Source: Minwuia sp.
GTDB taxonomy: Bacteria > Pseudomonadota > Alphaproteobacteria > Minwuiales > Minwuiaceae
Assembly (NCBI GenBank): GCA_029210175.1
Contig: JARGPL010000003.1
Location: 1-64,000 of the forward strand
Reading direction: 5' to 3'
Length of the DNA: 64,000 bases
Within the stretch, counting starts at the first letter, position 1, and each line of letters begins with the position of its first letter. Both the position numbers and the translations under genes were made by a program. The notes under the pieces are model-generated. The model made no database searches. It had not been told where the DNA came from and worked only from the letters and a program-made list of their open reading frames with translations. Shown in pieces: positions 3,348-22,871 of the stretch.

Positions 3348-3525
3348 CGTTAGCTCCTTTCGGCGTGAATGGGCTAAGGATGGCGAGCAAGGGCGCGTCC
3401 CGGGACGCTCGAAAAACGGGGGGCGCGAAAATCGAGCCCCCTCTTTCGTTGCCCTTTTCGCTCACGCGAAAGTGGCGGCGCGCGACACGGCTTTCGTCGA
3501 AGAAAACAAAAGAGAAAAAGGGGCG

Positions 3526-3675: not shown

Positions 3676-3702
3676 GGGTAGAAAATCTCCTGATGATTGA
3701 GC

Positions 3703-3721
3703 CGTTCTCCCGTCGAGAACG
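3703..3721 (-). promoter_or_regulatory. Leader stem-loop of the gene at 3526-3675
   Basis: CGTTCTC (3703-3709) and GAGAACG (3715-3721) form a perfect 7-bp stem with a 5-base loop, just upstream of the AGGAG ribosome binding site. It belongs to a series of similar leaders in the backbone. Confidence 0.5.
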
Positions 3722-3940
3722 CGCCCAGCGGTCATCCGGTGAGCCGAGGGTCAAGGCCGCGAAGCGCCGCCGAAGGCGGGGCGTGGGGGAGCCGAAATGC
3801 GCAGCATTTTGGGGGTACCGCGCAGCCTTGAGGCTCGCGTTTGGCCGGGTGGCATACTGAAGAAATCGAGACGGAAAGCCCGTCGGCGACAGCCGACTCC
3901 GCATCAATTCCGGCGGCCCAGCTCGCGCGAAAGCATGAGA

Positions 3941-3975
3941 AAAGCCCCGCCACGGTCGATCCGCAGCGGGGCTTT
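3941..3975 (-). terminator. Intrinsic terminator after DUF736 gene
   Basis: AAAGCCCCGC at 3941-3950 and GCGGGGCTTT at 3966-3975 pair perfectly over 10 bp with a 15-base loop. On the minus strand the stem ends in a T-run. It lies 13 bases beyond the DUF736 stop codon. Confidence 0.75.
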
Positions 3976-3987
3976 GAGGGGCAGGAT

Positions 3988-4329
3988 TTAGCGGTCGCGC
4001 GGCTCCCAGAGGGCGATATGGGTGGTGCCGTCTTCGCCGGGCTGTTCCAGCTTGACCAGGCGGGCGCGCACCCAGTTGGGGCCGAATTCTGGCGCGCCGA
4101 TCTTGAGGTTGAGGTAGGTCTCGCCGCTGGTTTTGGCGACCTGCGACCAGCCGGCGCCGACTTCGTAGCGGTTGCCATTACCGGCATAGACGCGATGATC
4201 GGGGGCGTTCTCGCTCATCTTGTCGACCGGGACGATGACGAGGCTGGCGGTGACGTTGAGGGTTTTGAGCGTGCCGGTGAAGCTGTTGTCAGTGGCGTTT
4301 TTGGTGAAGGCGCCAAGGGTGATAGCCAT
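3988..4329 (-). CDS. DUF736 domain-containing protein
   Basis: The 113-residue protein starts MAITLGAFTKNATDNSFTGT, the hallmark of DUF736, and ends with THIALWEPRDR. DUF736 proteins are small, all-beta, and nearly always found on alphaproteobacterial plasmids and integrative elements; their function is not established. A GGAGA site precedes the ATG, with an inverted repeat (4352-4373) upstream. A strong terminator follows, so it is probably monocistronic. Confidence 0.92.
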   Translation of the reverse strand: MAITLGAFTKNATDNSFTGTLKTLNVTASLVIVPVDKMSENAPDHRVYAGNGNRYEVGAGWSQVAKTSGETYLNLKIGAPEFGPNWVRARLVKLEQPGEDGTTHIALWEPRDR

Positions 4330-4351
4330 TTGAAAGTCTCCTATGCTGTTG

Positions 4352-4373
4352 ATCGCGGGATCATCCCTGCGAT
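4352..4373 (-). promoter_or_regulatory. Inverted repeat in DUF736 leader
   Basis: ATCGCGGGAT and ATCCCTGCGAT form an imperfect inverted repeat with one bulge immediately before the GGAGA ribosome binding site. It may be an RNA hairpin or an operator; the sequence alone cannot decide. Confidence 0.4.
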
Positions 4374-5171
4374 GTCACCAGCGAAAAGACCGCAAAGGCG
4401 GGCGGTTCACCTGAAAGGGCGAAGTGCAACGGAGCACCCGCCGGGCGGGGAAATTTGCCTCGCGAGGAATGGCCGTAGGCCAGGGGAAATTTTTCCGACC
4501 GAAGGGTTGAACGGACCGGCGCGGGATTTAAGCGACAAAGACATGCAGGGATTGGTCCTCGATGAATGGCGCGACAGGGAGACGAATGGCCTCATCACCC
4601 GCCGCTTTCACAGCCGAGAATGACGGCGTTACCGGTCCCACGGACGCCCATCACCCAGCCGGATCGGCATTCTTCCGTGCAAAGATGAGCCCCAAAACGC
4701 CCCTTCATCGCATCGCTATGCTGGCCGCGCGATACGAAGAACGGAGCCAGGCAGCCACGCCAAAACGAGCGGCGAAGCGGCAACCAATCCTCATAAGCCG
4801 CGCCATTTCTGCCCCGATGCGCTGACCCAGCCCAAGCTGAGACCACCCGCAAGACGGCCCGCTGCACTGCTGGTAGGAGGCATAACCCACCTTTCCCGCC
4901 CTCCCGGCCACGCCTGATCGCACGAGGAATGGGGCTTTTCATGCGGGAAACGCCAGCCATCCACCGCCCACGAATGCGGGCAAAAGCGCCATGGGATGGA
5001 AGCCCGCAGGGCAGAAACCGCGAAGCGGGTTCGGTTCACGACAGCCCGGCGCGCGGGGCTTGCCCCGTGCGGGCGCCCATACTGTAAATGTAATCCGCTA
5101 TTTTCATCTGTCAGAAGATTGGATATCATGAAGTTAGGAGATTCTGAATTACATTGGGTAATCCTGAGGCG
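4374..5171. other. Roughly 800-base stretch without a convincing gene
   Basis: No open frame here has convincing protein character: the candidates are arginine/serine-rich and lack ribosome binding sites. It holds a GC-rich hairpin at 5051-5070 and, nearer the RHH gene, ATGTAAT (5088-5094) and its inverted copy ATTACAT (5148-5154). AT content rises sharply from about 5081, as in a promoter region. A transfer or replication origin could lie here, but I see no iteron array. Confidence 0.5.
5051..5070. repeat. GC-rich hairpin upstream of RHH gene
   Basis: GCGCGGGGC and GCCCCGTGC are adjacent inverted arms (one G-T pair) forming a tight stem. No T-run follows on either strand. Confidence 0.4.
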
Positions 5172-5384
5172 ATGGCGCGATCGAAGAAAATCACGAATGA
5201 ACAGCGTGGCGGAAAGAAGGATGTGGCCTTGCAGGTCATGGTTCCTCCTGACGTCAAACGGGCGGTTAATATGCAAGCGGCAAAGGAAGATACAACACAG
5301 CGGACCATTGTGTTGAAGGCACTACAGGCGCTGGGCATTCCAGTTTCTGACGACGATCTTCATGATCGCCGCAGGGATCGATAG
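5172..5384 (+). CDS. Ribbon-helix-helix DNA-binding protein
   Basis: A 70-residue basic protein (MARSKKITNEQRGGKKDVAL...). The segment VALQVMVPPDVKRAVNMQAA, followed by a second helix ending KALQALGIP, is a ribbon-helix-helix fold of the CopG/ParG kind. In related elements such genes follow parA; no parA is seen here, and instead the methyltransferase gene starts 18 bases downstream. It may be a partition accessory protein or the autoregulator of the methyltransferase-nuclease module. The inverted ATGTAAT/ATTACAT pair upstream is a candidate operator. Confidence 0.7.
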   Translation: MARSKKITNEQRGGKKDVALQVMVPPDVKRAVNMQAAKEDTTQRTIVLKALQALGIPVSDDDLHDRRRDR

Positions 5385-5402
5385 GAGCAACTTCATGAAA
5401 GG

Positions 5403-8400
5403 ATGGGGAAGGTAACGGTGGCCCAGGCTCTTCCATCAAAGTGGGTGGACGCACTTTCCCTCGGACGCCGAAAGGCGCCCGAGCTTTATAGCGCGGGTGA
5501 TGCCATCAAGCTCGGCCCTCATGCCGAATCAATTCGCTTTGCTCTAGACGAATTGGGGCTTGCCGCTGTTTTTTGCATCGAAGGTGCACCAACAATCGGC
5601 TTCCTGAACGAGCCGAACGTAACGCTCGACCGCATTGATGCGGTTCATAGAGTTCTCTGGAATCAGGGCTTGATGAGCCTACTGCTTGTCATCGGTGATG
5701 ACGAGCTAACGGCCTATTCCTTGGTGCAGCGGCCGTTCAAGCGTGAAGAAGGGACGTCCAAGCAAGATCCGCGGCTGATCACCACGCTTTCCCTGCTTGG
5801 TCATGCCCTGACGCTGCGCGAGTTGATAGATTCCACCGAGTCAGGACGCTTCTGGTTCGAGAACGACAGCTTCTTCGACCTGTCGCAACGGGTCGATAGC
5901 GTTTTGTTGGATAACCTTCTCCACGCCTTCCGCAAATTGAAGGACGATCTAGGCAGTGATGGCGCACAAGCGCTGCTCATGCAGACAATGTTCATTGCTT
6001 ATCTAGAAGATCGGAAAATCATCACCCCCGACGTATTTCAGGATGCTTCAAACGGTTCTCATTCAAAGTTCGAGGAGATCCTCGCCGCCAAATCGGCTAA
6101 ACCCTTCGAAAAGCTGTTTGTATGGCTAAAGGAAGCGTTCAATGGCGATGTTTTCAACGCGCCATGCGCATTTGATCTTGGGTCGAAGCTTCCGCCAAAG
6201 CTGAAGACAGAGCATCTTCGTGTGCTGGGGCCATTTCGTCACGGACGGGAAGAGATCGGATCGGGTCAGCTACGCTTTTTCGGTTATGACTTTCAACATA
6301 TGCCGATCGCCCTGATTAGTGCGGTATATGATCGCTTTCTAAAGGAGGAGGCAGAGAAGAAGAACTCAGATGGCGCTTTCTACACGCCGATGTTCCTAGC
6401 CGATGTGGTCGTTAATCAGGTTTGGGACGAACTGAATGATGAGCAGAGATCGAAGGGCATCTTCTACGATCCGGCGTGTGGCTCCGGGATTTTTCTTGTT
6501 AGAGTTTTTCAACGGCTCGTTGCCCATCATTGCAGAACCAGAAAAAAGCGCTATGCGACATGGAATGAACTGACGTCTATCGCACTTCGATTACATGGTG
6601 GAGACGTCAATACTGCTGCGGTGCGCGTTGCGACCTTCTCGCTTTACATAGCTTTGTTGGAGCAATCGAACCCGCCTGACCTCCCCGCGCTGATCAAAAA
6701 GGGCAAGCTCCTTCCCTCACTTTATCGGGTTACGCTGCGGGTGGAGGATTTCTTTACCACGGCTGACGAGGCGCGTTACGACGCGATCATCGGCAATCCG
6801 CCGTGGAAGGGCCGCGCAGGCGTCGTCACGACAGCACAGCAATGGGCCAAGGCACAGAACCTTCCCGACCCTGGGAAGGATATCGCGTGGGGATTTGTCT
6901 GGAAGTCTCTCAACTCAGTGAAACCAGATGGCCTCATTGGCCTGCTTCTTCCGGCGATGGGTGTGCTTCACAATACATCAGGCGAGGCGGCTCGGAAGCT
7001 ACTGCTTCGCAAAGCGAGCGTTAGGCGCATCATCAATCTCTCCGATCTGTGCTTCCAATTGTTCGATGGCGCACAGCGGCCCACGGCTTTCGTTCTTTAT
7101 CAGAACGGTCAAGACGACGGCACGCCCTATCGCTTTGAATATTGGGTTCCGAAGGCGGACCTCAATCTGCGTCTTAAGCGCATAATGACATTATCGCGGT
7201 CTGATCGCTTACGACTGCGTTCCGATCAAGTGGAAAGTGATCCGTCCATCTTCAAGCGGCGCTTATGGACTAGGAGTCCAGACGAAAGGTTGCTGCAATA
7301 CCTACGTAGCGTGCCAGCTTTGAATATATTCATATGCGAATACAAAACGCTCCGAAAAGGAGAGTTCGATCGCGCTTTCACTTGGGCTATCGGTCAAGGA
7401 TTTCAACCTGCGAACCCAGAAAAGACAGGGCAGCCAGAATATCGAACCACCACATCCGACTTTGTGACGGGCTACCCGTATCTTGCAGCGGAATCATTCT
7501 CGGCGATAGCACTTCCGGCAATCGAGGAAAAGCCTTGGCATACAAAATCGGTAAGACGCGCTGGATTTTCAGAGGGGTTTATTGGTCCTCATATCCTTGT
7601 ACCGCAAGGGGTAGAGCGTTCTATCGGTCGAGTTCGCGCTGCATATACCGAGCAGAGTCTGGCATTTGAGCACTCACTTCAGGCAATTGCATTTCCTGCA
7701 TCTGAAAGTCGAACTGCCAAACTGCTTACTGCTGTTCTGAACAGTAGCCTTGCTGCCTGGTTCTATTTCCATGATTCCGCAAATTTTGGCGCAGACCGAG
7801 CAAAGGTTCACCAGAACGAACTGCTAAAGCTGCCGTTTTCGGCGCCGGAGAGCATGCCCGATCCAGAGCGCGCGACAGCGGCGGCGGAAAAGATCGTTCG
7901 TCTCGTCGACCGCGAAATCAAACAGGCAAATGATCTGCTGCGTCAGCATGGCAATGTCCTAGAAGAGATCGACGGCTTGGTCTACGAATATTACGCACTC
8001 GACGAGCACGACATTGCTCTGATCGATGACACGTTCAAACATATTATTCCCGCCATGCAACCGCGCCGGAGTGCCGGTATGCAAAAAATCTGGGACAGCA
8101 GCCGTTTAGAACACCGTAGTGCTTACGCGGCGACGCTTTGCGACGCATTGAAGCCCTGGTTTCGGAAGCCGGTAGGTGCTTCCTTAACTGCAATATCTGC
8201 GGATATCGCTGTGTTGCGCCTGACTCTCGACAGCTCCGATCAAACCGATGAGGCTTACAGCGAGAACGCCTCAACAGATTTCGAGATCTTCCTTCAAACG
8301 ATTCACGCAAACCTGCCTGCTCCGCTACCAGGCAATGTGCAACTCGTACCTGATCTTCGTTTCGTGATCGGCCATGACATGTATCTGATCAAGCCGATAC

Positions 8401-8516
8401 AACTTCGACATTGGTTGCGTTCAACGGCATTAGCTGATGCCGAGCAGATTGCCGCCGAATTTAGTGCTGTTGTGGCGCGAAATTCCAAGTTGGATGCCCA
8501 AAATGCTGGCCGGTGA
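5403..8516 (+). CDS. Eco57I-like N6-adenine DNA methyltransferase, R-M type
   Basis: This 1037-residue protein has an N-terminal domain (1-190) of the sort found in type IIG-like methylases (WNQGLMSLLLVIGDDELTAY), then GAFYTPMFLADVV, SAM motif I YDPACGSGIFLV near residue 355, GGDVNTAAVRVATFSLYIAL, and catalytic motif IV IIGNPPW near 464. The C-terminal half would hold the target recognition region. It should methylate adenine in a specific site. No PD-ExK nuclease motif is evident in the N-terminus, so cleavage probably depends on the downstream protein, whose start overlaps this gene's end. A GTG at 5418 behind GGGGAAGG is an alternative start with a better ribosome binding site. Confidence 0.85.
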   Translation: MGKVTVAQALPSKWVDALSLGRRKAPELYSAGDAIKLGPHAESIRFALDELGLAAVFCIEGAPTIGFLNEPNVTLDRIDAVHRVLWNQGLMSLLLVIGDDELTAYSLVQRPFKREEGTSKQDPRLITTLSLLGHALTLRELIDSTESGRFWFENDSFFDLSQRVDSVLLDNLLHAFRKLKDDLGSDGAQALLMQTMFIAYLEDRKIITPDVFQDASNGSHSKFEEILAAKSAKPFEKLFVWLKEAFNGDVFNAPCAFDLGSKLPPKLKTEHLRVLGPFRHGREEIGSGQLRFFGYDFQHMPIALISAVYDRFLKEEAEKKNSDGAFYTPMFLADVVVNQVWDELNDEQRSKGIFYDPACGSGIFLVRVFQRLVAHHCRTRKKRYATWNELTSIALRLHGGDVNTAAVRVATFSLYIALLEQSNPPDLPALIKKGKLLPSLYRVTLRVEDFFTTADEARYDAIIGNPPWKGRAGVVTTAQQWAKAQNLPDPGKDIAWGFVWKSLNSVKPDGLIGLLLPAMGVLHNTSGEAARKLLLRKASVRRIINLSDLCFQLFDGAQRPTAFVLYQNGQDDGTPYRFEYWVPKADLNLRLKRIMTLSRSDRLRLRSDQVESDPSIFKRRLWTRSPDERLLQYLRSVPALNIFICEYKTLRKGEFDRAFTWAIGQGFQPANPEKTGQPEYRTTTSDFVTGYPYLAAESFSAIALPAIEEKPWHTKSVRRAGFSEGFIGPHILVPQGVERSIGRVRAAYTEQSLAFEHSLQAIAFPASESRTAKLLTAVLNSSLAAWFYFHDSANFGADRAKVHQNELLKLPFSAPESMPDPERATAAAEKIVRLVDREIKQANDLLRQHGNVLEEIDGLVYEYYALDEHDIALIDDTFKHIIPAMQPRRSAGMQKIWDSSRLEHRSAYAATLCDALKPWFRKPVGASLTAISADIAVLRLTLDSSDQTDEAYSENASTDFEIFLQTIHANLPAPLPGNVQLVPDLRFVIGHDMYLIKPIQLRHWLRSTALADAEQIAAEFSAVVARNSKLDAQNAGR

Positions 8517-9141
8517 TACTGGGGACTGGCTAGCGCAATTCCGAACGCTTGAGGAGCGGATGGCGGATGCCGTCGAAGCCGCGTGGCCTGTTTGTATCGC
8601 GCCGCTTCAGCTCAAGAAGGGCTGTATGACCCATGAAGACCACATCACTAATCATCTGGTTGAAGCCCTCATCCGAACAAAAGGGGTCCCAGGGCGAATT
8701 ATTCCACAACATAGCCTTCTCACAGTCGCGGCCGACAAGACTGTTACGCTATCCAGCTATATCGATTTCGTTTTGACCATTGGCGATGACGAGGATGCCT
8801 ATCTGGCATGCGAGTGCAAACGTCTCAACGTGCCTTACAAGTCGGGTACGAGGGGGCTCGTGGGTGAATATGTCGACGACGGCCTAATGCGCTTTATCTC
8901 CGGTCAATACTCAAACGGCCTCCCTCTGGCGATGATGCTCGGCTATGTAATGAATGCCCACACTGACCGCGCGCGTCGTGGATTGCGTCGAGCGATGACG
9001 GTTCGCGCATCGGCAGTCCGGCTTAAATCCGAGAGGGACGCACCCGTTGTCGATGGTCGCCCCCTTCGGTTCTTTACGACCCATATCTGCGCATCCGGCC
9101 AAGACATCGAAATCGCCCATACGTTGCTGGGTTGGCCATAA
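8494..9141 (+). CDS. Putative PD-(D/E)XK-type nuclease partner of the methyltransferase
   Basis: A 215-residue protein whose start (ATG 8494, or 8503) lies inside the end of the methyltransferase gene, implying coupled translation. The central segment SSYIDFVLTIGDDEDAYLACECKRLN contains a D followed by ExK (ECK), the arrangement of PD-(D/E)XK nucleases. I do not recognise the family beyond that. Its fixed place behind an Eco57I-like methylase suggests the restriction half of a two-gene system. It could also be a specificity or accessory subunit. Confidence 0.6.
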   Translation: MPKMLAGDTGDWLAQFRTLEERMADAVEAAWPVCIAPLQLKKGCMTHEDHITNHLVEALIRTKGVPGRIIPQHSLLTVAADKTVTLSSYIDFVLTIGDDEDAYLACECKRLNVPYKSGTRGLVGEYVDDGLMRFISGQYSNGLPLAMMLGYVMNAHTDRARRGLRRAMTVRASAVRLKSERDAPVVDGRPLRFFTTHICASGQDIEIAHTLLGWP

Positions 9142-9300
9142 AGTGATTGCTCAAAGTACTTTTCGGGCCACAATCGAGTGCATATAGATCGTCGATGAGT
9201 CACGATTTGTTGTAGGAAGATTTGACGTAGGCTGGAACGAGGGAACGAGTCGCTTCATCACAAAATAGACCCATGCTCTTGTATCTGGCCGTAAGTAAGA

Positions 9301-9329
9301 GTTTTCGCGAAAACGGCGCATCATGCGCC
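9301..9329 (-). terminator. Two adjacent palindromes between convergent genes
   Basis: GTTTTCGCGAAAAC (9301-9314) is a perfect palindrome and is followed directly by GGCGCATCATGCGCC (9315-9329), a perfect 7-bp inverted repeat with a one-base centre. Read on the minus strand the second hairpin is followed by GTTTTCG, a weak T-run. It spans the stop codon of the DUF2493 gene and could terminate both convergent units. Confidence 0.4.
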
Positions 9330-10265
9330 GCCCTCGCATTGCCAGACCTTAATGCCCATCTTGCGGGCTTTATCGGCGAGGTTTTGGCTGATGCCGGATC
9401 CCGGAAAAGCGATGACGCCGATGGGTAGCGCGTCGAGCATTGCGTCGTTGCGCTTGAAGGGGGCGGCGTTCTTAAAGCGGGTCCAGTCGGGCTTGAAGAC
9501 GATCTGCGGAACTTTGCGATTATCGGCCCAGCAGGCAGCGATTTTCTCGGCGCCCTTCGGCGATCCGCCATGGATCAGTACCATGTCGGAATGCTTGGCG
9601 TGGGCCTTGTCGAGGGCGTCCCAGATGCGGGCGTGGTCGTTGCAATCCATGCCGCCGGTGAAGGCGATGCGCGGGCCGGTGGGCAGCAGCGGCTCAATCT
9701 CGGCCTTGCGTTTGGCGGCGATAAAATCGCGGCTGTCGATCATGCTCGCCGTCATCGTCTGGCGATTGGCCATCGAGCCGGAACGCGGTTTCCAGGCGGA
9801 GAAGGTGTATTTCTCGAACCATGATGCGCCTATTTCACGGAAGGCTTCGAACGCGTTACGACGCTCGATGATCGAGATGCCCTGCGCGGTCATTCGTTCC
9901 AGTTCGACGGATTTGACCTCCGAGCCGTCCTGTTCACGCTGCATCCGGCGCTGCGCCTGTTCGTTGTCGTCGAGCGCACGGTCGAGATTGGCGATCTTGC
10001 GGTGGAAGATGTTGACGAGGTTCCAGAGCACATCATCGAGATCGTCTTCCAGCCGCGTGTCGGCCATCAGGGCAGTGAGGGATTCGAATGCGTTTTCAAT
10101 CTCCTGTTCGGCGCGGGCGGCTTCGGGCAGCGGGCGCGGATCGGGCTCGTCGCCATGGGGGCGATAGCCATACATCTGCAACTCATCGAGCAGATGGGCG
10201 GTTGGCGATGATGTGTGATGCGGCTCGTCGTCGAAGGGTTCGAGGAAGGGGTTATGAAGCGTCAT
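9321..10265 (-). CDS. DUF2493 domain-containing protein (SLOG-like)
   Basis: A 314-residue protein starting MTLHNPFLEPFDDEPHH. Residues about 60-190 are helical and charged; the C-terminal part RIAFTGGMDCNDHARIWDAL, then VLIHGGSPKGAE and IAFPGSG is the DUF2493/YpsA-related Rossmann-like SLOG fold, which binds nucleotides or nucleotide derivatives. It is common on plasmids and integrative elements, with no proven function. The ATG at 10265 has a GGGAGA site upstream. Confidence 0.88.
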   Translation of the reverse strand: MTLHNPFLEPFDDEPHHTSSPTAHLLDELQMYGYRPHGDEPDPRPLPEAARAEQEIENAFESLTALMADTRLEDDLDDVLWNLVNIFHRKIANLDRALDDNEQAQRRMQREQDGSEVKSVELERMTAQGISIIERRNAFEAFREIGASWFEKYTFSAWKPRSGSMANRQTMTASMIDSRDFIAAKRKAEIEPLLPTGPRIAFTGGMDCNDHARIWDALDKAHAKHSDMVLIHGGSPKGAEKIAACWADNRKVPQIVFKPDWTRFKNAAPFKRNDAMLDALPIGVIAFPGSGISQNLADKARKMGIKVWQCEGGA

Positions 10266-10287
10266 GGCGGGGTCTCCCGTTTTGCGA

Positions 10288-10306
10288 GGCCGCGCCACCC
10301 GCGGCC
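10288..10306 (-). promoter_or_regulatory. Leader stem-loop of the DUF2493 gene
   Basis: GGCCGCG and CGCGGCC form a perfect 7-bp stem with a CCACC loop. An outer pairing (CCCG/CGGG and TTTGCG/CGCAAA, 10276-10341) encloses it. It lies in front of the GGGAGA ribosome binding site of the DUF2493 gene. Confidence 0.5.
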
Positions 10307-10503
10307 TTTCCGGGGATCGTCCGCCAGCGCCGCAAAGCGGGTTTGCACCCTTCAGGGCCGCAACGCAGTGGAGGACGGCGCAGCCGTTGCAAAGCCGATT
10401 GGCGCTGGCAGATACCCCTTTTGGAAAGGCCGTGGCGCGGCCCCTTTGCAAACGGTGAGACCTGCCGTGTGCGCACTCCTTTCAGCGACCCGATGGCGGA
10501 CCA

Positions 10504-11496: not shown

Positions 11497-11499
11497 GGC

Positions 11500-14400: not shown

Positions 14401-15807
14401 AGCGGCGGCATGAATATTGTCGAACGTATCGTCGAGCGTCCATAATCCGGCGAGATGCCTGGCATGCGCTTCACCGGCATAGATCACGCTTTCGAGCTGG
14501 GCGTCGGAAAGAATGCCACTCTTTATAATATGGGCGGGCAAGCGCGGACGGTAGGAGGGCTGCGGCGGCGCCACCGAGGCCATAGCGGCGGACTGCACCA
14601 GCTTGGTCGGGTGCGGCTGCGCGCCTTCGATACGGATTGATTGCAGCGCATAGCCCTCATAGAGCGTGTCGGCGAGATCGGCGCCTTCGCTGGCTTTCCA
14701 TTCGGTCGGCTCATAGGCAATCTCAGTGGCGTCGGGAGCGGAAGATATCGTCGTCGGCCTGGGCGCAGTCGGAACGGAGCGGATCGTTACAAGGGGCTTC
14801 GCCGCCACGCCAAGACCGATTTCGCCCTCCACCTTCATGCGCGGCGGCACATGCTCGATGACATTGGCGAGCAGTTCGGCAGCGCTTTGCGCAGTCGGCA
14901 TGATCGGAGAGGCGCCAGTATCCGGAACCTTGTCGATCACGGTGAGGCGCGTCTCGAACGTCGTGCCATGCTTGGCATAGGCACTGCCATCGATGACGCA
15001 GGAAAAGCGAATTGCGCCGTTCAGTCGCTCATAGGGGAAATTATGGCCGGTGATCGTCACCAGCCGCCCGCCATCCGGCAAACGCGCCAGAGCCGAACGC
15101 ACATGATGAAAATCGGCATCAGACACGCGCCCCTGCACGTGGAGCGCGGCGGAGAAAGGTGGGTTCATGATGACAACCGACGGCGAGACATCGTCCGTCA
15201 ACCGATCATCAATGCTGGCCGCGTCATGGGTGGAGGTGACGGCGTCGGGAAACAGCCGCCGCAATAACGCCACGCGCGTCTCGGCGATCTCGTTGAGCGC
15301 CAGACGGGCGCCCATGATCTCGGCGAAAATGGCCATTAGGCCGGTCCCGGCAGACGGCTCCAGCACCACGTCATCGGGCGTGATGCCGGCAGCGATGGCC
15401 ACCACCAGCGCCAGGGGCGCCGGGGTCGAGAATTGTTGCAGAACCTGAGATTCTTCCGACCGGCGCGTATGGGTGGGGAGCAGCCCAGCGATGCGGCTGA
15501 TCATCGATAGAAGTGCTGTGGGCGATGCCGCCTTTTCCTGCATGGCGCGGCCATATTTGCGCAGAAACAGCACCTGCGCCGCCTCGCAAGCTTCATAGGC
15601 GTCTTTCCAGGACCAGAAGCCCTCGGCGTCCGAGCCACCGAAAGATTCCTCCATCGCCTGACGCAGGATGCGGGTTTCAATGGTGGTGCCGCGCTCCAGA
15701 CCGGCAAGGATGCGGTTGGCGGCGGTGAAGATGCAGCTTGCAGTATTCTCAGGCGTGCGGAATGGCGCGGCAGTTTGCGCCGCCGCTGCGGGTAGAGCAT
15801 AATTCAT
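11500..15807 (-). CDS. Methyltransferase/strawberry-notch helicase fusion protein
   Basis: This very large protein (1435 residues) has two parts. The first is a SAM methyltransferase: motif I VLEPSAGTGLMAIFAE near 147 and the N6-adenine-type motif MNPPFSAAL near 211. The second is a superfamily 2 helicase of the strawberry-notch class: GDGTGCGKGRQVAG near 484 as Walker A, IIFDEAHAMA near 590, YVSATGATDV, and C-terminally LGRSNRTNQAQPP. Homologues are widespread on alphaproteobacterial plasmids and integrative elements. Protection or processing of incoming element DNA is a reasonable guess but unproven. The leader carries a perfect 8-bp stem (15839-15874). Confidence 0.9.
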   Translation of the reverse strand: MNYALPAAAAQTAAPFRTPENTASCIFTAANRILAGLERGTTIETRILRQAMEESFGGSDAEGFWSWKDAYEACEAAQVLFLRKYGRAMQEKAASPTALLSMISRIAGLLPTHTRRSEESQVLQQFSTPAPLALVVAIAAGITPDDVVLEPSAGTGLMAIFAEIMGARLALNEIAETRVALLRRLFPDAVTSTHDAASIDDRLTDDVSPSVVIMNPPFSAALHVQGRVSDADFHHVRSALARLPDGGRLVTITGHNFPYERLNGAIRFSCVIDGSAYAKHGTTFETRLTVIDKVPDTGASPIMPTAQSAAELLANVIEHVPPRMKVEGEIGLGVAAKPLVTIRSVPTAPRPTTISSAPDATEIAYEPTEWKASEGADLADTLYEGYALQSIRIEGAQPHPTKLVQSAAMASVAPPQPSYRPRLPAHIIKSGILSDAQLESVIYAGEAHARHLAGLWTLDDTFDNIHAAADDAENAVRFRRGWFLGDGTGCGKGRQVAGIILDNWIKGRRKAVWLSRSDKLLEDAQRDWSALGMEKLLVQPLSRFKQGTPIRLSEGILFVTYATLRSAEREGKASRLQQVIEWLGSDFNGVIIFDEAHAMANAAGGKGERGDVAPSQQGRAGLRLQRAVPDARVVYVSATGATDVRNLAYAERLGLWGGEDFPFANRGEFVQAVEAGGVAAMEVMSRDVKALGLYTARSLSYDGVEVEIVEHALTPEQIAIYDAYAAAFQVIHNNLNEALEATNVTCQNQTRNGQARAAAKSAFEGAKQRFFNGLITGMKVVTLIKSVERDIADGHAPVIQLVSTGEAVMERKLADIPAEEWHDLTIDLSPREVVGSYLQHSFPTQLFETYSDDEGNLRSRPAFDAEGNPIQCKTALAARDRMIEQLATLDPVPGALDQIIQHFGTDEVAEVTGRSRRIVRKGERLCVENRTPSANLSETQAFMDDDKRILIFSDAGGTGRSYHADRGAKNQRLRVHYLLEAGWKADAAIQGLGRSNRTNQAQPPLFRPIATDVKAEKRFLSTIARRLDTLGAITRGQRQTGGQGLFRTEDNLEGDQARAALRQFYMLLAQGGIQGCSLQRFEEATGLSLTFEGGTLKEDLPPITTFLNRLLALPIAMQNSLFAAFEELLSARIEAAIAAGVHDAGLETIRAESLIVTDRRTVWKHDSGAETRIFTIQRKDRNRPMTADQALAVRDGKLLINERSHRAAVRTSATSLMLDDGSMQRRVRLIRPMQRDIMSVEGFATTHWKETEEAEFTAAWQKEVVDIPEFSTSTFHLVTGLLLPIWRRLPESNARVYRLQTDSACPGTGQGPVSGGERVIGRMLSQIEMEAVCRNLGIDAPKISNTDAWGLIMDGKVTAHLADGLSLRRVRVMNENRVELSGFTSGLVEALKARGLMSEIINWKLRVFVPVGDRGQMIFESLLDRWALTQIAERG

Positions 15808-15838
15808 GGGATGTCTCCGGGTTGAGAGTTTGAAAACC

Positions 15839-15874
15839 GAACCGGAACAGGCTTTCTCTCACCCGCTCCGGTTC
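15839..15874 (-). promoter_or_regulatory. Leader stem-loop of the strawberry-notch gene
   Basis: GAACCGGA (15839-15846) and TCCGGTTC (15867-15874) are perfect inverted arms around a 20-base purine-rich loop. A GGAGA ribosome binding site follows before the ATG at 15807. Confidence 0.5.
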
Positions 15875-15900
15875 ACCCTTCCCGGAAACTCCTCTTACTT

Positions 15901-16536
15901 TCACCCAAACCGCCCGCCGTTACAGGTGAACGTGTAGGCATTGGCAGTGATGCTTTCCTCGACCACCCCGTCGGAGTTGAGGAACTCGTATTCCGTCTCC
16001 AGCCGCGCATAGAGCCAGCGGGCAAGATCACGCATGGCATCAGTGATGATGTCCTCGGCATTGGCGGTCATCTCCGCGTCGTCGCGGCGCACATCGAATT
16101 GCATCGTGTTCTCGTGGCAATAGTGGCCGCGCTGGGTGATGATGGCGTAGAGCTGATAGAAATTGCGCCGCTGAATCGCGTTCAGACGCACGGCGATATC
16201 ATGCAATTCGGCATCCTTGGGCGCATAAGCTTTGATCCTGGCGACGCTGCCCTTGGCGTAAGTCAGCCTGCCTTCGAAGCTCGCGCCATCCCCTTGCGAC
16301 CAGAAACCTCGGAATTGAATGCAGGGCTTTTGACGTGTGCCGCCGCCCATCAGCCGGACGGGGTGGGCTTTCAGTTCGACGCCGAGGATTTTGCAGATGG
16401 TGGAAAAATCATCGTAGGTGCAATCCCACCATTCATAATCGAGGTTCCCTTCGCGATACCATTCACGGGCGCGTTCCTTGGCGGCGCCTGACAGCTCATC
16501 GAAGGTGAAGACAGTGGTTTCAATGACGGTCGGCAT
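15901..16536 (-). CDS. Conserved mobile-element protein of unknown function
   Basis: A 211-residue protein starting MPTVIETTVFTFDELSGAAK, with EWYREGNLDYEWWD shortly after. Similar N-termini occur in phage and plasmid proteins, some loosely labelled antitoxin-like; I would not assign that function. It is aromatic-rich and acidic towards the C-terminus, with no membrane segment. GGAGG five bases before the ATG fixes the start. It lies between ParB and the helicase fusion and is probably transcribed with them. Confidence 0.75.
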   Translation of the reverse strand: MPTVIETTVFTFDELSGAAKERAREWYREGNLDYEWWDCTYDDFSTICKILGVELKAHPVRLMGGGTRQKPCIQFRGFWSQGDGASFEGRLTYAKGSVARIKAYAPKDAELHDIAVRLNAIQRRNFYQLYAIITQRGHYCHENTMQFDVRRDDAEMTANAEDIITDAMRDLARWLYARLETEYEFLNSDGVVEESITANAYTFTCNGGRFG

Positions 16537-16556
16537 ATGAGCCTCCATAAATGAAA

Positions 16557-16606
16557 GGCCCGGCGCCCCGCGCGACATGGCGCGCAAAACAGGGGCAATC
16601 CGGGCC
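16557..16606 (-). promoter_or_regulatory. Strong leader stem-loop of the gene at 15901-16536
   Basis: Three nested pairings are visible: GGCCCGG/CCGGGCC (16557-16563 with 16600-16606), GCCCC/GGGGC (16565-16569 with 16592-16596) and GCGCG/CGCGC (16570-16574 with 16581-16585). This is the most stable-looking hairpin of the leader series. It sits about 20 bases before the start codon. Confidence 0.55.
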
Positions 16607-16633
16607 ATGATAGATGAGAAGTGAAGGAACCGC

Positions 16634-18694
16634 TTACTCGGCGGCGGTGAGGAATTCCGGAAGCTCGGCGTCGGACGCCACCTCCGGTTCGTCCGTATTC
16701 GGCGCGCTCATGGGATCGACACCGGACGTCCTCAGCGGTTCAGGCAGCCAGCCGGTGTCGGAAAGCAGCCGCTCGGCCTGTTCGGCCATGTCGCCCTTTT
16801 TGAGGTGGTCGATAAGCTCGGCCGCGGCATCACCCTTGGCCTCGGTCACCGCCTCCAGGATGCGCGCTTTTGGCACCCGGTTCAGGTAATTCTCAGCGGT
16901 CGGCTTCCACCCGGCAGTGGCCATGTCGAGCGACACGGCGCAGGCAAGCTGGTCGGCATGATGCCGGCGGCCCTGTGCCCGGTTCCAGGGCTCATGCAGG
17001 GCGTTGACGGTGAGCGAGGCGCAATGGGCGAAGAGCGCCATGCGGCTGTCATGATCGAAGTCGCAGAGGAACTCCCAGAGCAGTTCGGGTTCATCCGGCA
17101 ACTGCTTTTCCCAATTGGTCTGACGATCGTCAATAGCCTTGGCAGACGGGCAATCCTTCAGGTCCGGCCCCTGCACGGAAAAGCCGCTGCTTTTCCATGC
17201 GATCTCCAGGCAACTATCGGTGGCGTAGCGATAGAAGGTCTGGAGCGCCAACCCATGCAGCACGGCGATGAAGGCGATGTCCGGGTCGCCCGCCAGCGCA
17301 TCGCGCAAGGCCAGCGTCCGGTGCGCGGTGAGTTCCATTACCAGCCGGTCCGAGAGTGGCTTGATGCCTTCGTCCTCCTCGTCTGGAGATGCATTACCAG
17401 ATAGCACGGCGGGATCGACCTGCCGGGTCTCGCCGTCTGCACCGACATGGACGATTTCGACATGATCGCGGACGAAGCCATCGGCGTCGGCCTCGCCTTC
17501 ATCGCTTTCATTCTGCACCTCGTCCTCGGGCCGGACATAGCCGCGCTCGACCTTGAGCCTGCCGTCGCTGTCGATGCTGACGAAAACACCCGAGCGGGCA
17601 ATCTCAGCGGGATCGTAGATGACGGGTTGGCTCTCGAAGGCATCGAGTGCGGCCTCGATTTCACCCAGCCGCTGGTCGACCTCTTCGGGAAGCTCCTCTT
17701 CGGTGTCTGAGTAGCGCTCCTCGATCTCCGCCATCTCCTCGCGCAGGGCTTCACGCTTTGCTTGCTCCTCATCCGACAGAGGCTGCATTTCACCCATGAC
17801 GCGGCGCAAACCGCCAGTATGCCCATAGGGAAATTCCTGGGCGATTTGAATCCAGCGCCAGCCTTCCGCCTTGATCGTCTCAGCTTCACTGGTCAGCTTC
17901 GCGGCGACCAAGCGTTCCAGGAGCGCCACGTCCTGCAACCAGCCCTCGTCATTTTGCGAAAACAGATCGCGTAGGACGCTGCCCCCTTCGGCTTCATAGG
18001 TATCGAGGCCAATGAGGCGAACCCGCTTGTCCGATGCCCGAACGGCGTCTTCCGTCAGCAACTTGCGAATATAGTATGGTTCCTGGTTGTAGCCGCGCTG
18101 CACAGCCTCCCACACTTGCTCCTGCCGCTCATGGTTGGTTGCGATGCTGAAGGCCATGAGCTGTTCCAGCGTCATCTCGTCGGCAGCATAGATTTCAAGT
18201 AGTTTGGGCGACACACTGGCCAGCTTCAGCCGCTGCCTGACAATCTGCGGGGTGACAAAGAAGCGGGCAGCGATGTCCGCCTCAAAGAGGCCCTGATCTT
18301 TCAGAGACTGGAACGCGCGGAACTGATCGAGCGGATGGAGCGCCTGCCGCTGGACATTCTCGGCGAGGCTATCCTCTTCGAGAATGCCGTCTTCGCGGAT
18401 GACGCAGGGGATCGGCGCGGTTTTATTGAGGCGCTTCTGCTTGACCAGCAGCTCCAGCGCCCGGTATCGGCGCCCACCAGCTTGCACCTCGTAGCTGTCC
18501 GTGGGTTGACCATCTTCACCAAGCACCTGACGAACGCTCAGGCTCTGCAACAGCGTGCGCCGGGCGATATCCTCGGCCAGATCCTCGATCGACACGCCCG
18601 CCTGCACGCGGCGGACGTTGCGGTTTGAGAGCACCAGCTTGTTGAAGGGAATGTCCCGGGACTGGGACAGGGTGATTTTCTTGAGGGTTGCCAT
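16634..18694 (-). CDS. parB: ParB/RepB/Spo0J family partition protein
   Basis: A 686-residue protein. The N-terminal ParB nuclease-like CTP-binding fold shows VQAGGRRYRALELL, then EDSLAENVQRQALHPLDQ; the HTH region is IAARFFVTPQIVRQRLKLAS. The long C-terminal half with acidic stretches (residues about 330-470) is typical of ParB-like proteins of alphaproteobacterial plasmids and integrative elements, roughly twice the length of chromosomal ParB. No parA is in the window, so the partner is outside it or absent. A GGAGAAACC ribosome binding region precedes the ATG. Confidence 0.9.
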   Translation of the reverse strand: MATLKKITLSQSRDIPFNKLVLSNRNVRRVQAGVSIEDLAEDIARRTLLQSLSVRQVLGEDGQPTDSYEVQAGGRRYRALELLVKQKRLNKTAPIPCVIREDGILEEDSLAENVQRQALHPLDQFRAFQSLKDQGLFEADIAARFFVTPQIVRQRLKLASVSPKLLEIYAADEMTLEQLMAFSIATNHERQEQVWEAVQRGYNQEPYYIRKLLTEDAVRASDKRVRLIGLDTYEAEGGSVLRDLFSQNDEGWLQDVALLERLVAAKLTSEAETIKAEGWRWIQIAQEFPYGHTGGLRRVMGEMQPLSDEEQAKREALREEMAEIEERYSDTEEELPEEVDQRLGEIEAALDAFESQPVIYDPAEIARSGVFVSIDSDGRLKVERGYVRPEDEVQNESDEGEADADGFVRDHVEIVHVGADGETRQVDPAVLSGNASPDEEDEGIKPLSDRLVMELTAHRTLALRDALAGDPDIAFIAVLHGLALQTFYRYATDSCLEIAWKSSGFSVQGPDLKDCPSAKAIDDRQTNWEKQLPDEPELLWEFLCDFDHDSRMALFAHCASLTVNALHEPWNRAQGRRHHADQLACAVSLDMATAGWKPTAENYLNRVPKARILEAVTEAKGDAAAELIDHLKKGDMAEQAERLLSDTGWLPEPLRTSGVDPMSAPNTDEPEVASDAELPEFLTAAE

Positions 18695-18709
18695 GTCGGT
18701 TTCTCCAGA

Positions 18710-18746
18710 ACGGGCGAGGAAAGCCTTCTTTCCCCTTCCAACCCGT
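18710..18746 (-). promoter_or_regulatory. Leader stem-loop of parB
   Basis: An outer ACGGG/CCCGT pair (18710-18714 with 18742-18746) encloses a perfect GGAAAG-CCTT-CTTTCC hairpin (18718-18733). It lies in front of the GGAGA ribosome binding site of parB. Confidence 0.5.
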
Positions 18747-18775
18747 CACGAAAAACCCGAACTTCCCTCTCACTT

Positions 18776-19138
18776 TCAGGCCGCTGCCTGGTTCAGGTCG
18801 AGATTGTAAACCTCCGCCCCCGCCGCCGCGTAGGACCGCGCCACCACGATCAGCGGGGCGTAGGAAAAGGCGTGCCGAGGTTCCGGATCGGGGTTTCTTC
18901 CGACCGCGATCATCGGACCGCTGATGGCGAGCTTCACTACCCGGTCGAACTCGACGCAGCGACTATCGATCACCGGCAGCCCGGCGGCAATGGCCTGGGC
19001 CTTGACCGCTTCGACGTCATAGCCAGAGAGGCTTCCGTTCAGATAGTGCAGCGAAAAGCCGCCGCGGCCGACCGTCAGATGACCGCCCGACGTGGCGAGC
19101 GCCCTGGCGATATCGGCGCTGTAATCACGATCATGCAT
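18776..19138 (-). CDS. Hypothetical protein
   Basis: A 120-residue protein starting MHDRDYSADIARALATSGGH and ending VYNLDLNQAAA. It appears to be a single small alpha/beta domain with no membrane segment or recognised motif. GGGAGAA lies just upstream of the ATG. It is between parB and the PAPS-reductase-like gene, all in the same direction. Confidence 0.65.
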   Translation of the reverse strand: MHDRDYSADIARALATSGGHLTVGRGGFSLHYLNGSLSGYDVEAVKAQAIAAGLPVIDSRCVEFDRVVKLAISGPMIAVGRNPDPEPRHAFSYAPLIVVARSYAAAGAEVYNLDLNQAAA

Positions 19139-19152
19139 GAATGTTCTCCCGC

Positions 19153-19192
19153 GACGGGCGGCGCGGACCCGTTCCATGCCTGTCGACCCGTC
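19153..19192 (-). promoter_or_regulatory. Leader stem-loop of the gene at 18776-19138
   Basis: GACGGG (19153-19158) and CCCGTC (19187-19192) are perfect inverted arms before the GGGAGAA ribosome binding site. Confidence 0.45.
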
Positions 19193-19260
19193 ATTGGGAA
19201 ATGGCCGCCCCCGGACTTCGGGAGCGACCAGCATCTGAAACAATGAAAGGGGAAACGGCG

Positions 19261-20106
19261 CTATACGCCGCACATGCCGTCGCATTCGTCAGCGAAGAGA
19301 TCAAGCTGCCCTTTGTCCGCCAGTGTGTCGAGGTCGGCCTCGTCGAGCGGCAGGCAGGAACGGTGCAGGAAGACCTCGCCGCGCAGATTGCGAAAACCGG
19401 TGCGGATCATTCGGTCGATGACGACGGCATCGTCCCAGGCATCGGGATCCTCCTCGCGCATCTGCCGCCATAGACTGTCGCTATGATAAGGGCAGCCGAT
19501 GCAGGAACTTTTCGGCGGCGTGGGATAGCCGTGCCGCTCCAGCCATCGCAGGCAGTCGCGGCGCGTCATACCCATCTCAATGAGCGGAAAACGGTTCACC
19601 TGCCACGGCTCCATCGACATTTTCATGCGCACGACCTCGTCGAAGGATATGCCGATCCACTGCTCGACGACCGGACGATTTGGCGAACGTTTCCCTGCGA
19701 TGCCGACAAGTTCGCGCACCTTGCGGCGGATCGGGGCGATTTTGAGTTCCTTTGTGCATTGCCGCCGGATCATGCCGACCTTGCCCGACGCGGATTTGGT
19801 GAAGGCGGGGATCGAGGCCCAGCGTTCGCCCCGCGCGCCATTCACGAGCCCCTCGCGGATATTGCCGTCCGAGACGATATGTACGGGAAAGGGCAGCACG
19901 TTTGGTGATCTCAGCCAGGCGAGATGCTTATAGACCGCCCGCGGCTCCCAGCCAGTATCGGCGAAGATGGCGCAATCGGGCATCGGCCCGATCTCACCAT
20001 GGGCGGCCATCAGCGCCAGCGTGGTGGACTGCACCCCGGCGCCGAGCGACAGCACGCGCAGCTTAACGGTGGATGTATCGGCCGGCGGCGGGAACAGCGC
20101 GTTCAT
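19261..20106 (-). CDS. Phosphoadenosine phosphosulfate reductase-like PP-loop protein
   Basis: A 281-residue PP-loop ATPase. The loop is SLGAGVQSTTLALM near residue 16, followed by IFADTGWEP, the substrate-side CTKELKIAP and a C-terminal CIGCPYHSDSLW cysteine pair. The architecture is that of CysH/DndC-like enzymes, which activate sulfate or transfer sulfur. On mobile elements such proteins are usually annotated only as PAPS-reductase-like. The ATG at 20106 overlaps the TGA of the thermonuclease gene (ATGA), so the two are translated together. Confidence 0.85.
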   Translation of the reverse strand: MNALFPPPADTSTVKLRVLSLGAGVQSTTLALMAAHGEIGPMPDCAIFADTGWEPRAVYKHLAWLRSPNVLPFPVHIVSDGNIREGLVNGARGERWASIPAFTKSASGKVGMIRRQCTKELKIAPIRRKVRELVGIAGKRSPNRPVVEQWIGISFDEVVRMKMSMEPWQVNRFPLIEMGMTRRDCLRWLERHGYPTPPKSSCIGCPYHSDSLWRQMREEDPDAWDDAVVIDRMIRTGFRNLRGEVFLHRSCLPLDEADLDTLADKGQLDLFADECDGMCGV

Positions 20107-20624
20107 GGCCGCTCTCCCGCCTGCTGTCCGCGTCGCCATTCGGCGGGTGGGTCGAATGTGCCATTCCAGATCCCCTTGCGCAGGAACTTCGCCATGCTTT
20201 CCTGGCTGGTGTAATTATAGAGGCGGTTGGCATCGCGATCGGCGATGGCCCAGCCCTCATTGGCGACCCAGGCTGAAAGATTGTCGCTGCCCGCGTAGCA
20301 GATCGAGATCAAGCGGCCATAGGCGTCGCGTGTCGTCTTTTGCCAGATATCGCAGTTGACCGTCCGGTCTTCTAGGAATTTGGCGAGAGCAGCCGCAGCA
20401 TCTCTGCCACAGGACCACGCGGCACCATCGCGGCGGTGGCAGATCTGGTCCATCTCCATGGCATCAACGCCATAGAGGCGGTGTCTTTTTCCATCGATCT
20501 CGATCGTATCCGCATCGATAACGCGGGCTGGACCTTTGTGGTCACTATCGAGCGCGGGCCAGAAGGACACGAAGGCGAAAAACACCATGCCGATGACGGC
20601 GCTGCCTTTGACAAGTTGAAACAT
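20103..20624 (-). CDS. Thermonuclease (SNase-like) family protein
   Basis: A 173-residue protein with an N-terminal signal anchor (MFQLVKGSAVIGMVFFAFVS). It then shows the SNase core: VIDADTIEIDGKRHRLYGVD, DRTVNCDIWQKTTRDAYGRL and WVANEGWAI. These are calcium-dependent nucleases or nuclease-fold proteins acting outside the cytoplasm. A role in DNA transfer or entry is possible but unproven. GGAGA precedes the ATG. Confidence 0.85.
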   Translation of the reverse strand: MFQLVKGSAVIGMVFFAFVSFWPALDSDHKGPARVIDADTIEIDGKRHRLYGVDAMEMDQICHRRDGAAWSCGRDAAAALAKFLEDRTVNCDIWQKTTRDAYGRLISICYAGSDNLSAWVANEGWAIADRDANRLYNYTSQESMAKFLRKGIWNGTFDPPAEWRRGQQAGERP

Positions 20625-20637
20625 CGGGAGTCTCCTT

Positions 20638-20694
20638 TTCGGGTTACGGGCAGACAGGCTCTCTCTTGGCCCTCAGCCCTTCACCCGCCCCGAA
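20638..20694 (-). promoter_or_regulatory. Leader stem-loop of the thermonuclease gene
   Basis: TTCGGG (20638-20643) pairs with CCCGAA (20689-20694), closing a longer GC-rich structure. It sits immediately before the AAGGAGA ribosome binding site. Confidence 0.45.
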
Positions 20695-21494
20695 CGCTCC
20701 TTTTCCTCTGGGTCCAGCAGCCGTCGGTAGCCGCCCCGCACCATGGTCCTCGCGCCGGAGAGCAGGCGCTGAACGCGGGTACGCAGGAAACCTGCCTCCC
20801 AATCCTCCCGGACCGCCCGATCCCCGAACAGCACCGCCGCAATCTCGCGCTGGCTAGCCCCGGTGGCCGACCCGTCAAAGGCGCGGAGCATCAGGGTCCA
20901 GCGGCGGGCGCGGCGTTCAGGTGGGTAAAGGGATTTGAGCAATCGTCCGCTGCGCGCCAGGCGGCAAAGGCGCTGTAGGGTCAGCGGCTTGATCTCGAAC
21001 TCCTTGAGGCCGCAAAGCGTGCAACTCAGCAGGGCCGGACCGATGAGCGCATCGCCCTCTGTCACCGCGAGTTGCAGATGCCGCGCTCCATCACTGAATA
21101 ACAAATGCTGGCCGTCATCACCATGCACGACGGTTTTGAATAAAGGGCATTGGCGACAATCGAATGTATTGCCTGTGTCGACGTGCGGTTTGGCTTCCAC
21201 CTGCAAGACCAGGGGATTGCATTCCGGCAGCCAGAAGAACGTCATCTCTTCGTCGATCCGGCAACAGCGAACGCCCCAGCGGGAAAGGCGGTAATCCTGA
21301 TCGCAAAGGATGTGTCCGGATTCATCAGGCGGGCTGCATCGGGCTTCCCGCAGGTCGGCAAGGAACGCAGGGTTCCTGCGCAGCCACTCGCCCGCCCAGC
21401 AATGCCGGTCGCAGTTGAGCAACGGATTATAGTGTATGGGTTCGCGCCAATCGGCGCTTGGACATATGCCCGGTTCGGGTTTCTCCTCAGACAT
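20673..21494 (-). CDS. DUF6499/DUF2285 domain-containing protein
   Basis: A 273-residue protein starting MSEEKPEPGICPSADWREPI. The N-terminal part matches the transcriptional-regulator-like DUF6499 domain (LSRWGVRCCRIDEEMTFFWL). The middle has Cys pairs CRQCP and CTLCG. The C-terminal DUF2285 portion contains ASQREIAAVLFGDRAV and RVQRLLSGARTMVRGGYRRL, which looks like a DNA-binding HTH. The family is common on plasmids and integrative elements. It is divergent from the araC gene. Confidence 0.85.
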   Translation of the reverse strand: MSEEKPEPGICPSADWREPIHYNPLLNCDRHCWAGEWLRRNPAFLADLREARCSPPDESGHILCDQDYRLSRWGVRCCRIDEEMTFFWLPECNPLVLQVEAKPHVDTGNTFDCRQCPLFKTVVHGDDGQHLLFSDGARHLQLAVTEGDALIGPALLSCTLCGLKEFEIKPLTLQRLCRLARSGRLLKSLYPPERRARRWTLMLRAFDGSATGASQREIAAVLFGDRAVREDWEAGFLRTRVQRLLSGARTMVRGGYRRLLDPEEKERSGRVKG

Positions 21495-21529
21495 GGCAGC
21501 ATTCCTCCTTGCCGTGATCATCATCAGCA

Positions 21530-21568
21530 GACGGAAGAATGCTTGTTGGCGATGAGGTGTTTTCCGTC
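21530..21568 (-). promoter_or_regulatory. Leader inverted repeat of the DUF2285 gene
   Basis: GACGGAA (21530-21536) and TTCCGTC (21562-21568) are perfect 7-bp inverted arms upstream of the AAGGAGGA ribosome binding site. Confidence 0.45.
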
Positions 21569-21572
21569 CGCT

Positions 21573-21592
21573 CTATCGATGATTATCGATAG
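21573..21592. promoter_or_regulatory. Palindromic candidate operator between divergent genes
   Basis: CTATCGAT (21573-21580) and ATCGATAG (21585-21592) are perfect inverted copies with a GATT centre. The site lies between the DUF2285 gene (minus) and the araC-family gene (plus). It has the form of a dimer-binding operator. Confidence 0.5.
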
Positions 21593-21815
21593 GGAACGGC
21601 GGGCGCGCTTTTGCGAAAGGGTCGCAGCTTTTGAATTTGCGCCACGAAGTATTCAAAGATTTTTAAGTAAATCCGACAGTTTTTGTCAAACATTGCCCCA
21701 TAATTGCCGTATTCGCGCCATGATTGCATAAGTAGACTTTGATCTTGGAAGTCAGGTGGCCTGTCATATTACGGGCGACCTGCCCCAAGTGGATTTATGC
21801 ATTCATGGGGGTGAT

Positions 21816-22700: not shown

Positions 22701-22871
22701 GGCGGTCTACACTACCCCCAACCCGCATCGTATTACGCTACTGAACAATCAAACATACTTGCTCGCTCGACTGAGAACGACGCAGGTCAACGCTATCGAC
22801 ATCCCCCCATCTTCCTGCTAAACAGGTTCTAATCGGCTTCATTCGGCTGATTTTGGTAGAACTTCGCGCTT

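Follow-up and report, generated by a model that had tools for sequence, protein, structure and literature searches.

We consider it fairly probable that a set of hairpin leaders preceding backbone genes in Minwuia sp. (contig JARGPL010000003.1, positions 1 to 64,000, hereafter the window) are modular cis-acting RNA elements that gate the translation of establishment and maintenance genes in plasmids and integrated elements of Alphaproteobacteria. The window comprises the first 64 kb of one contig of a 4.09-Mb genome, and its best relatives are Alphaproteobacteria. Its backbone runs along the minus strand between 1 and 21500 (SLT, S26 peptidase, HTH, DUF736, YAcAr/DUF2493, Toprim, strawberry notch, ParB-like, SNase and RovC-type genes), the cargo genes being on the plus strand, and is presumably part of a mobile element because 553 plasmid records, of which 302 are typed conjugative, match its strawberry-notch protein. 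For comparison we used 84 related loci in which orthologues of the backbone genes are present, i.e., four plasmid stretches plus the best 80 of 471 confirmed candidates that a genome scan with a strawberry-notch alignment had yielded. Leaders in these relatives were located by tblastn and start-site scoring, the start sites being predictions, and as the homologues are related to one another, counts are not independent events.

A sequence-only reading of this DNA had described nine leaders with inverted arms before GGAG-type ribosome binding sites, their stems differing in sequence, as a trait of the backbone that cargo genes lack. All nine are indeed present, on the minus strand, with a GGAG-type site within ~20 nt followed by an ATG. 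To say that the stems differ nevertheless understates their likeness, as loops and flanks are shared and the classes recur before other gene families. By sequence comparison these are not nine unrelated stems, six of them falling into recurrent classes; the leaders at 3703 (49-aa open reading frame, ORF), 16557 (211-aa gene) and 21530 (RovC) are outside any shared class. Class T1 is found before ParB, ArdC, DUF932, a 182-aa family, the 120-aa gene and, weakly, SNase; T2 before strawberry notch; T3 before YAcAr; T4 before DUF736; and the terminator-like T5 before various small genes. The name DUF932 was taken from the annotation of the records, the Pfam scan covering one member per family, and the 182-aa family is without a Pfam or NCBIfam match. 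A T1 leader comprises a purine box, an outer stem (CGUGACGGG...CCCGUCGCGGAG) that usually extends into the Shine-Dalgarno (SD) sequence, a 5' internal loop (UUGAGG or UUGGAG), an inner stem and an AGAGG-type loop.

Three models, from all of which the window and locus L007 were left out, recover four of the window leaders at E-values from 1e-9 to 5e-5. R1 (T1; trained on 56 ParB leaders) finds those of the ParB-like gene (E = 1.4e-9) and the 120-aa gene (E = 2.3e-5); R2 (T3; 40 YAcAr leaders, L026, L082 and L083 also left out, only seven pairs) finds that of the YAcAr gene (E = 1.9e-5, next match 0.098); and R3 (T2; 47 strawberry-notch leaders, L080 and L086 also left out), a sequence-only model as RNAalifold gave no usable pairs for T2, finds that of strawberry notch (E = 4.6e-5), then SNase at 0.03 and nothing else at E <= 5. 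The SNase leader (R1, E = 0.029) scores more weakly than a cargo match at 60709-60777 (R1, E = 0.011), the one inspected among the weaker cargo matches, which is followed by no start codon. Cargo genes do lack the leader type, inasmuch as none of the three models has a match at E <= 0.01 in the window outside the backbone. Before the ParB-like gene (ParB_N by Pfam, 16634-18694, minus strand, ATG at 18694) the T1 leader occupies 18695-18779 and shows the purine box AAAGTGAGAGG (18766-18776, beginning 82 nt before the ATG), an outer stem over the SD, an inner stem and a purine loop. The T2 leader of the strawberry-notch gene (Pfam, 11500-15807, minus strand, ATG at 15807) is a long hairpin at 15808-15901 with the purine box AAAGTAAGAGG (15891-15901, beginning 94 nt before the ATG). 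These two boxes are slightly divergent and were detected with a looser pattern, which found none in the other seven leaders, that of the 120-aa gene included.

Run over 85 sources, R1 gave 141 matches at E <= 0.001, of which 140 were sense (the single antisense match was dropped from the T1 counts), and in 139/140 the match lies at -1 to +2 nt from a start codon, with the same proportion leading into an ORF of at least 50 aa. The genes behind these matches encode ParB (70), ArdC (31), the 182-aa family (20), DUF932 (15), the 120-aa protein (2) and RadC (1); because the training sequences of R1 ended at ParB starts, only the 69 non-ParB matches are independent in position. All 140 T1 leaders fold with an outer and an inner stem, in part as a consequence of R1 selecting for the former. 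In 130 of them two or more SD bases are paired in the minimum free energy (MFE) structure, and the apical loop is AGAGG in 81. The AGAGUGAGAGG-like purine box, a pattern chosen after the leaders had been seen, occurs 193 times (176 sense) against 95 for the reversed pattern. A gene start lies 45-125 nt after the box in 163 cases (39 for the reversed pattern), all sense and 157 of them at 80-99 nt, the module measuring ~80-100 nt. Behind these boxes are ParB (51), strawberry notch (49), ArdC (23), the 182-aa family (18), DUF932 (13), the Antirestrict PF03230 family (4), the DUF6878 family (2), RadC (1), one unknown gene and one mis-set frame in L010. A second conserved block, GGGGAAAGCCTTCCCC ... 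CTGCGGGGA ... CCCGCA, was additionally seen upstream of the ArdC T1 module in L005, L015, L022, L031, L050, L069 and L073.

Structure, position, recurrence and strand could all be computed for T1, and strand for T2. In the T1 outer stem, 96.6% of 1468 alignment cells are paired and both-side changes occur in 7 of 11 pairs versus 1-4 in slid controls, in an alignment that was fitted to that stem and holds one antisense row. Covariation was gauged against 300 tree-aware simulations with the author's own script, not R-scape, leaving out six antisense rows, two duplicate L116 rows of A8 and rows too short for the arms. Within the ungapped length class (78 leaders) the inner-stem pair 24-36 (GC 49, AT 18, CG 6) exceeded all 300 simulations, pair 27-33 reached E = 0.08 and nothing else came to 0.5 or below; a smaller run gave one outer-stem pair at E = 0.23. 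Compensatory base changes in stems were thus found for T1 only, with strict significance for one T1 pair.

In several gene families the two halves of a leader also fit each other. Exchanging the last 25 nt between homologues (those > 85% identical left out) costs folding energy in ParB, ArdC, the 182-aa family, DUF932, strawberry notch, YAcAr and DUF736 leaders (permutation p <= 0.0008), as well as in RovC (p = 0.001) and DUF6117 (p = 0.004), with no such effect in the 211-aa family (p = 0.26); among 15 intragenic controls 13 had p > 0.2, one of these at 0.989, i.e., in the reverse direction. Only leaders with a start-site score of at least 4.4 entered the swap tests and the energy test (63 of 85 strawberry-notch leaders in the latter). 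The MFE is lower in sense than in antisense for 45/46 ParB, 13/14 ArdC, 8/8 182-aa, 14/15 DUF932 and 41/49 strawberry-notch leaders, intragenic baselines being 31/139, 64/127 and 44/137, and the share of G-U pairs is 0.14-0.17 in sense versus 0.04-0.06 in antisense for ParB, ArdC and strawberry notch. From this strand comparison, T1 and T2 are sense-strand structures, and a conserved single-strand structure is supported for T1 and, with less evidence, for T2. The earlier suggestion of conserved RNA structure rather than repeated DNA therefore stands for T1 (both-side changes, sense bias, native-half fit), less firmly for T2, while YAcAr and DUF736 leaders share only the native-half fit, the latter folding better in antisense; for T3 and T4 the acting molecule may be RNA or DNA, of either strand.

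Stability against chance was assessed with dinucleotide shuffles that kept the SD in place (100 per window leader, 60 per host-control leader). The MFE is at p <= 0.03 in six of the nine window leaders (ParB, strawberry notch, DUF736, 211-aa, SNase and RovC) and not significant in YAcAr (0.15), 49-aa (0.12) and 120-aa (0.47). In the host control, 39 genes from a crude ORF caller on nine other stretches of the same genome, 5/39 leaders reached p <= 0.05 (6/9 vs 5/39, Fisher p = 0.002). Cargo leaders were stable in 2/6 cases, a proportion that cannot be told apart from 6/9 (p = 0.23), six of 14 cargo starts having been scored and the script having recognised no SD in the other eight. Folding energies alone are suggestive, and it is the comparative evidence that decides.

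The SD is unpaired on average at 0.19 in ParB leaders versus 0.45 in shuffles (31/69 individually at p <= 0.05) and at 0.22 versus 0.52 in ArdC leaders (17/31 individually significant). T1 thus ties up the SD, which points to translation control. In the mechanism that we propose, each T1 or T2 module would read, in order, purine box, hairpin and start codon; the 3' arm of the T1 outer stem would usually pair with the SD and keep translation low by default; and the purine loop (often AGAGG), the 5' internal loop and the purine box would be the probable recognition sites of a trans-acting factor, which might be a protein or else an RNA presenting a CU-rich face. Since unrelated genes are preceded by one and the same module, a single factor could set ParB, strawberry notch, ArdC, KlcA/ArdB-type, RadC and DUF932 genes together, as an establishment and maintenance regulon. 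We infer translation as the level of control, the trans-acting factor and a timing around conjugal entry. The fuller version, in which an SD-occluding hairpin cassette with a common purine loop and a purine box at a distance, placed before antirestriction (ArdC, KlcA/ArdB-type, RadC), partition and helicase genes, is released by one element or host factor in a burst of translation after entry, is a tentative proposal that we hold to be possible but doubtful. Ribosomal-protein leaders, autogenous or multi-gene, likewise place one RNA shape before several genes, at which one protein blocks ribosome access; they have a binding protein, whereas the leaders here are without a known one.

Several results weigh against this proposal. 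SD occlusion is not above shuffles in strawberry-notch (0/63) or 182-aa leaders (1/19; mean 0.50 vs 0.45) and is weak in YAcAr (6/61), DUF736 (12/50) and DUF932 (4/17); the masking of translation envisaged by the sequence-only reading fits T1 best, in view of the paired SD bases described above. Covariation with whole leaders (MAFFT, five families; 38 DUF736 leaders kept, those without the typical loop left out) gave no structural pair at E <= 0.5 and two non-structural pairs at 0.17 and 0.32, nor was there a pair at E <= 0.5 in the inner-27 and inner-28 length classes or in the outer stem alone. Two of the 15 intragenic swap controls fell below 0.05 (0.044, and 0.013 for one that runs past the DUF736 end). 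YAcAr leaders have no sense bias (sense lower in 20/42) and those of DUF736 lean towards antisense (sense lower in 8/32, p = 0.003). The search for a regulator, by CU-rich RNA motifs and by way of DUF736, turned up no factor: four exact motifs revealed no trans-acting CU-rich RNA in the loci, 91 of the 92 matches being antisense, as would be expected of complements of purine tracts, and DUF736, considered as an RNA-binding regulator, yielded an AlphaFold model (pLDDT 84) whose fold matched no PDB entry at E <= 0.001, while by sequence the PDB gave nothing below E = 0.2. A pseudoknot between the T2 loop and CGCUCUC reached the shuffled 95th percentile in 32/60 leaders, but native pairings were no better than swapped ones (p = 0.50). 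Finally, the putative link to establishment comes from gene identity only, in that ArdC, PF03230, RadC, ParB and DUF932 resemble establishment genes.

The alternatives that we weighed are not mutually exclusive, and the classes may differ in this respect. The hairpins could be insulators or constitutive shaping elements that separate cistrons without any signal, through mRNA stability, RNase processing or independence from upstream ribosomes, and give the same expression in any host. This is consistent with window modules sitting between closely spaced genes of the same strand, with a stop triplet (in any frame) touching the purine box in 63/163 cases and with the module staying with its gene while upstream genes vary among elements. 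However, insulation alone would give unrelated genes no reason to share one purine loop and box, and some modules follow a divergent gene (strawberry notch in L003, ArdC in L005). We regard this explanation as rather unlikely. Operators in double-stranded DNA, i.e., inverted repeats bound by an element-encoded repressor, would suit the YAcAr leaders without strand bias and the DUF736 leaders that fold better in antisense, both with a strongly conserved GC-rich hairpin; as T1 and T2 stems use G-U pairs mainly in sense, carry asymmetric internal loops and keep a fixed spacing to the start codon, we think such operators improbable.

Transcription attenuators or terminators before each gene appear improbable to the same degree. 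The leaders of the 211-aa gene and of other small genes do consist of a GC stem and a T-rich stretch just before the SD, but by eye there is no T tract where the T1-T4 hairpins pass into the SD, and between 9000 and 22000 of the window 15 terminator-like sites were counted, shuffles giving 9.8 on average (sd 3.8). Promoters of the Frpo/ssi type would act in single-stranded DNA, on the transferred strand as it enters; they too are hairpins upstream of leading-region anti-defence genes (PMC11541004), and the genes here, including ArdC, KlcA/ArdB-type and RadC, are of the leading-region kind. Here, by contrast, the hairpin reaches into the SD or stops close to it, so that transcripts starting beyond it would lack an SD; stability and G-U pairs of T1 and T2 point to the sense (non-template) strand, where a folded template strand would call for the reverse; and a simple scan found no -35/-10-like site at the window leaders, promoter-like hexamers between 9000 and 22000 numbering two (shuffled mean 3.0), neither at a leader. 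We therefore deem promoters of this type very improbable.

The translation-gating leaders, as we prefer to read them, have their nearest described parallel in EGeRS1 of the Bacillus plasmid pLS20, a conserved inverted-repeat region directly upstream of the ribosome binding site of ardC and other putative establishment operons; in both cases a conserved region precedes ardC and other likely establishment genes (PMC8708921). No constitutive promoter was found in the tested copy of EGeRS1, and a single-stranded DNA promoter is judged highly unlikely by its authors (PMC8708921). EGeRS1 is ~400-750 bp long, with multiple inverted repeats and one per operon, in Bacillus, whereas the leaders here are of the module size given above, precede single genes in Alphaproteobacteria and fall into several sequence classes, the two being set apart by description and not by sequence. 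A literature search found no publication describing these leaders. With Rfam 15 (4227 families) at the gathering cut-off, the window gives only a tRNA and loci L003-L006 give nothing; permissive scans returned four sub-threshold matches in 3000-23000 of the window and none at E <= 1 in 3100-4900 of L005. This tRNA gene lies on the minus strand at 41042-41113.

R1 has matches in 28 of 385 genomes from the class, among them that of the window itself; many of the matches lie two or three together over a few kb. A phylum draw gave matches in 24 of 299 genomes and, because every genome shown is the window's own or of the same class, says nothing on other classes. One ArdC leader matches 121 plasmid records and has no match among phage records.

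T3 and T4 share a strongly conserved GC-rich hairpin and are probably related. This link is not firm because R2, which was applied to the window and to 41 of the 84 loci, most of them chosen for carrying a DUF736 gene (R3 was applied to the window alone), misses most of the DUF736 leaders in those loci: at E <= 0.05 its 47 matches there comprise one near the YAcAr position per locus, four ending at DUF736 starts (E 0.004-0.03) and a further two, of which one is antisense. A CCAU...AUGG pseudoknot in T3/T4 was rejected, as variants do not keep the pairing (by eye). In the window, the T3 leader (10266-10334; MFE p = 0.15, SD p = 0.08) precedes the YAcAr gene (9321-10265, ATG at 10265; Pfam, the DUF2493 name coming from annotated relatives) and the T4 leader (4330-4400; fold with the SD paired, SD occlusion p = 0.01, MFE p = 0.02) precedes the DUF736 gene (3988-4329, ATG at 4329; Pfam), the T4 leader resembling those of L008 and L009 by eye; these and the features below are on the minus strand. 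Loci L027, L037, L054 and L073 hold a second, more divergent DUF736 copy with a different leader.

Among the remaining leaders, that of the 120-aa gene (18776-19138, no family; T1 leader 19138-19209, ATG at 19138) has the SD inside the outer stem, more occluded than in 100/100 shuffles though its MFE is not significant, and the strawberry-notch leader has an MFE below 100/100 shuffles with ordinary SD occlusion. A possible T1/T2-like leader (20625-20700, MFE p = 0.02) of the SNase-domain gene (20103-20624, ATG at 20624; Pfam) overlaps the 3' end of the upstream gene and leaves its SD mostly unpaired (0.90). The terminator-like T5 hairpin before the 211-aa gene (16537-16612, ATG at 16536, MFE p = 0.02) shares its stem base with L007, other listed homologues having none or a different leader. 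DUF6117- and hyp3473-type leaders (e.g., in L006, L052, L076 and L077) are also terminator-like, with a GC hairpin, a T-rich stretch, and then SD and start, thus ending in the SD. The hairpin before the RovC-type gene, the first gene of the run (21495-21572, ATG at 21494, MFE p = 0.03), recurs in L007 only, and an unclassified hairpin (3676-3730, fold; MFE p = 0.12) stands before the 49-aa ORF (ATG at 3675), which has no tblastn relative at E <= 1e-8 in the 84 loci. Elsewhere in the window, a BREX-type cargo lies at 23159-30227 (BrxF, BrxC and PglX/PglXI-like proteins in a row) and a Type IIG restriction-methylation-like protein is encoded at 5403-8516, between the backbone genes DUF736 and YAcAr.

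If the leaders do gate translation as we propose, these mobile elements would use portable hairpins to regulate, at the RNA level, the genes they need for entry and maintenance. Establishment genes could then be traced by the module as a sequence tag, among them unknown ones such as the 182-aa family, and the module would offer a system for asking how plasmids express anti-restriction genes only when needed.

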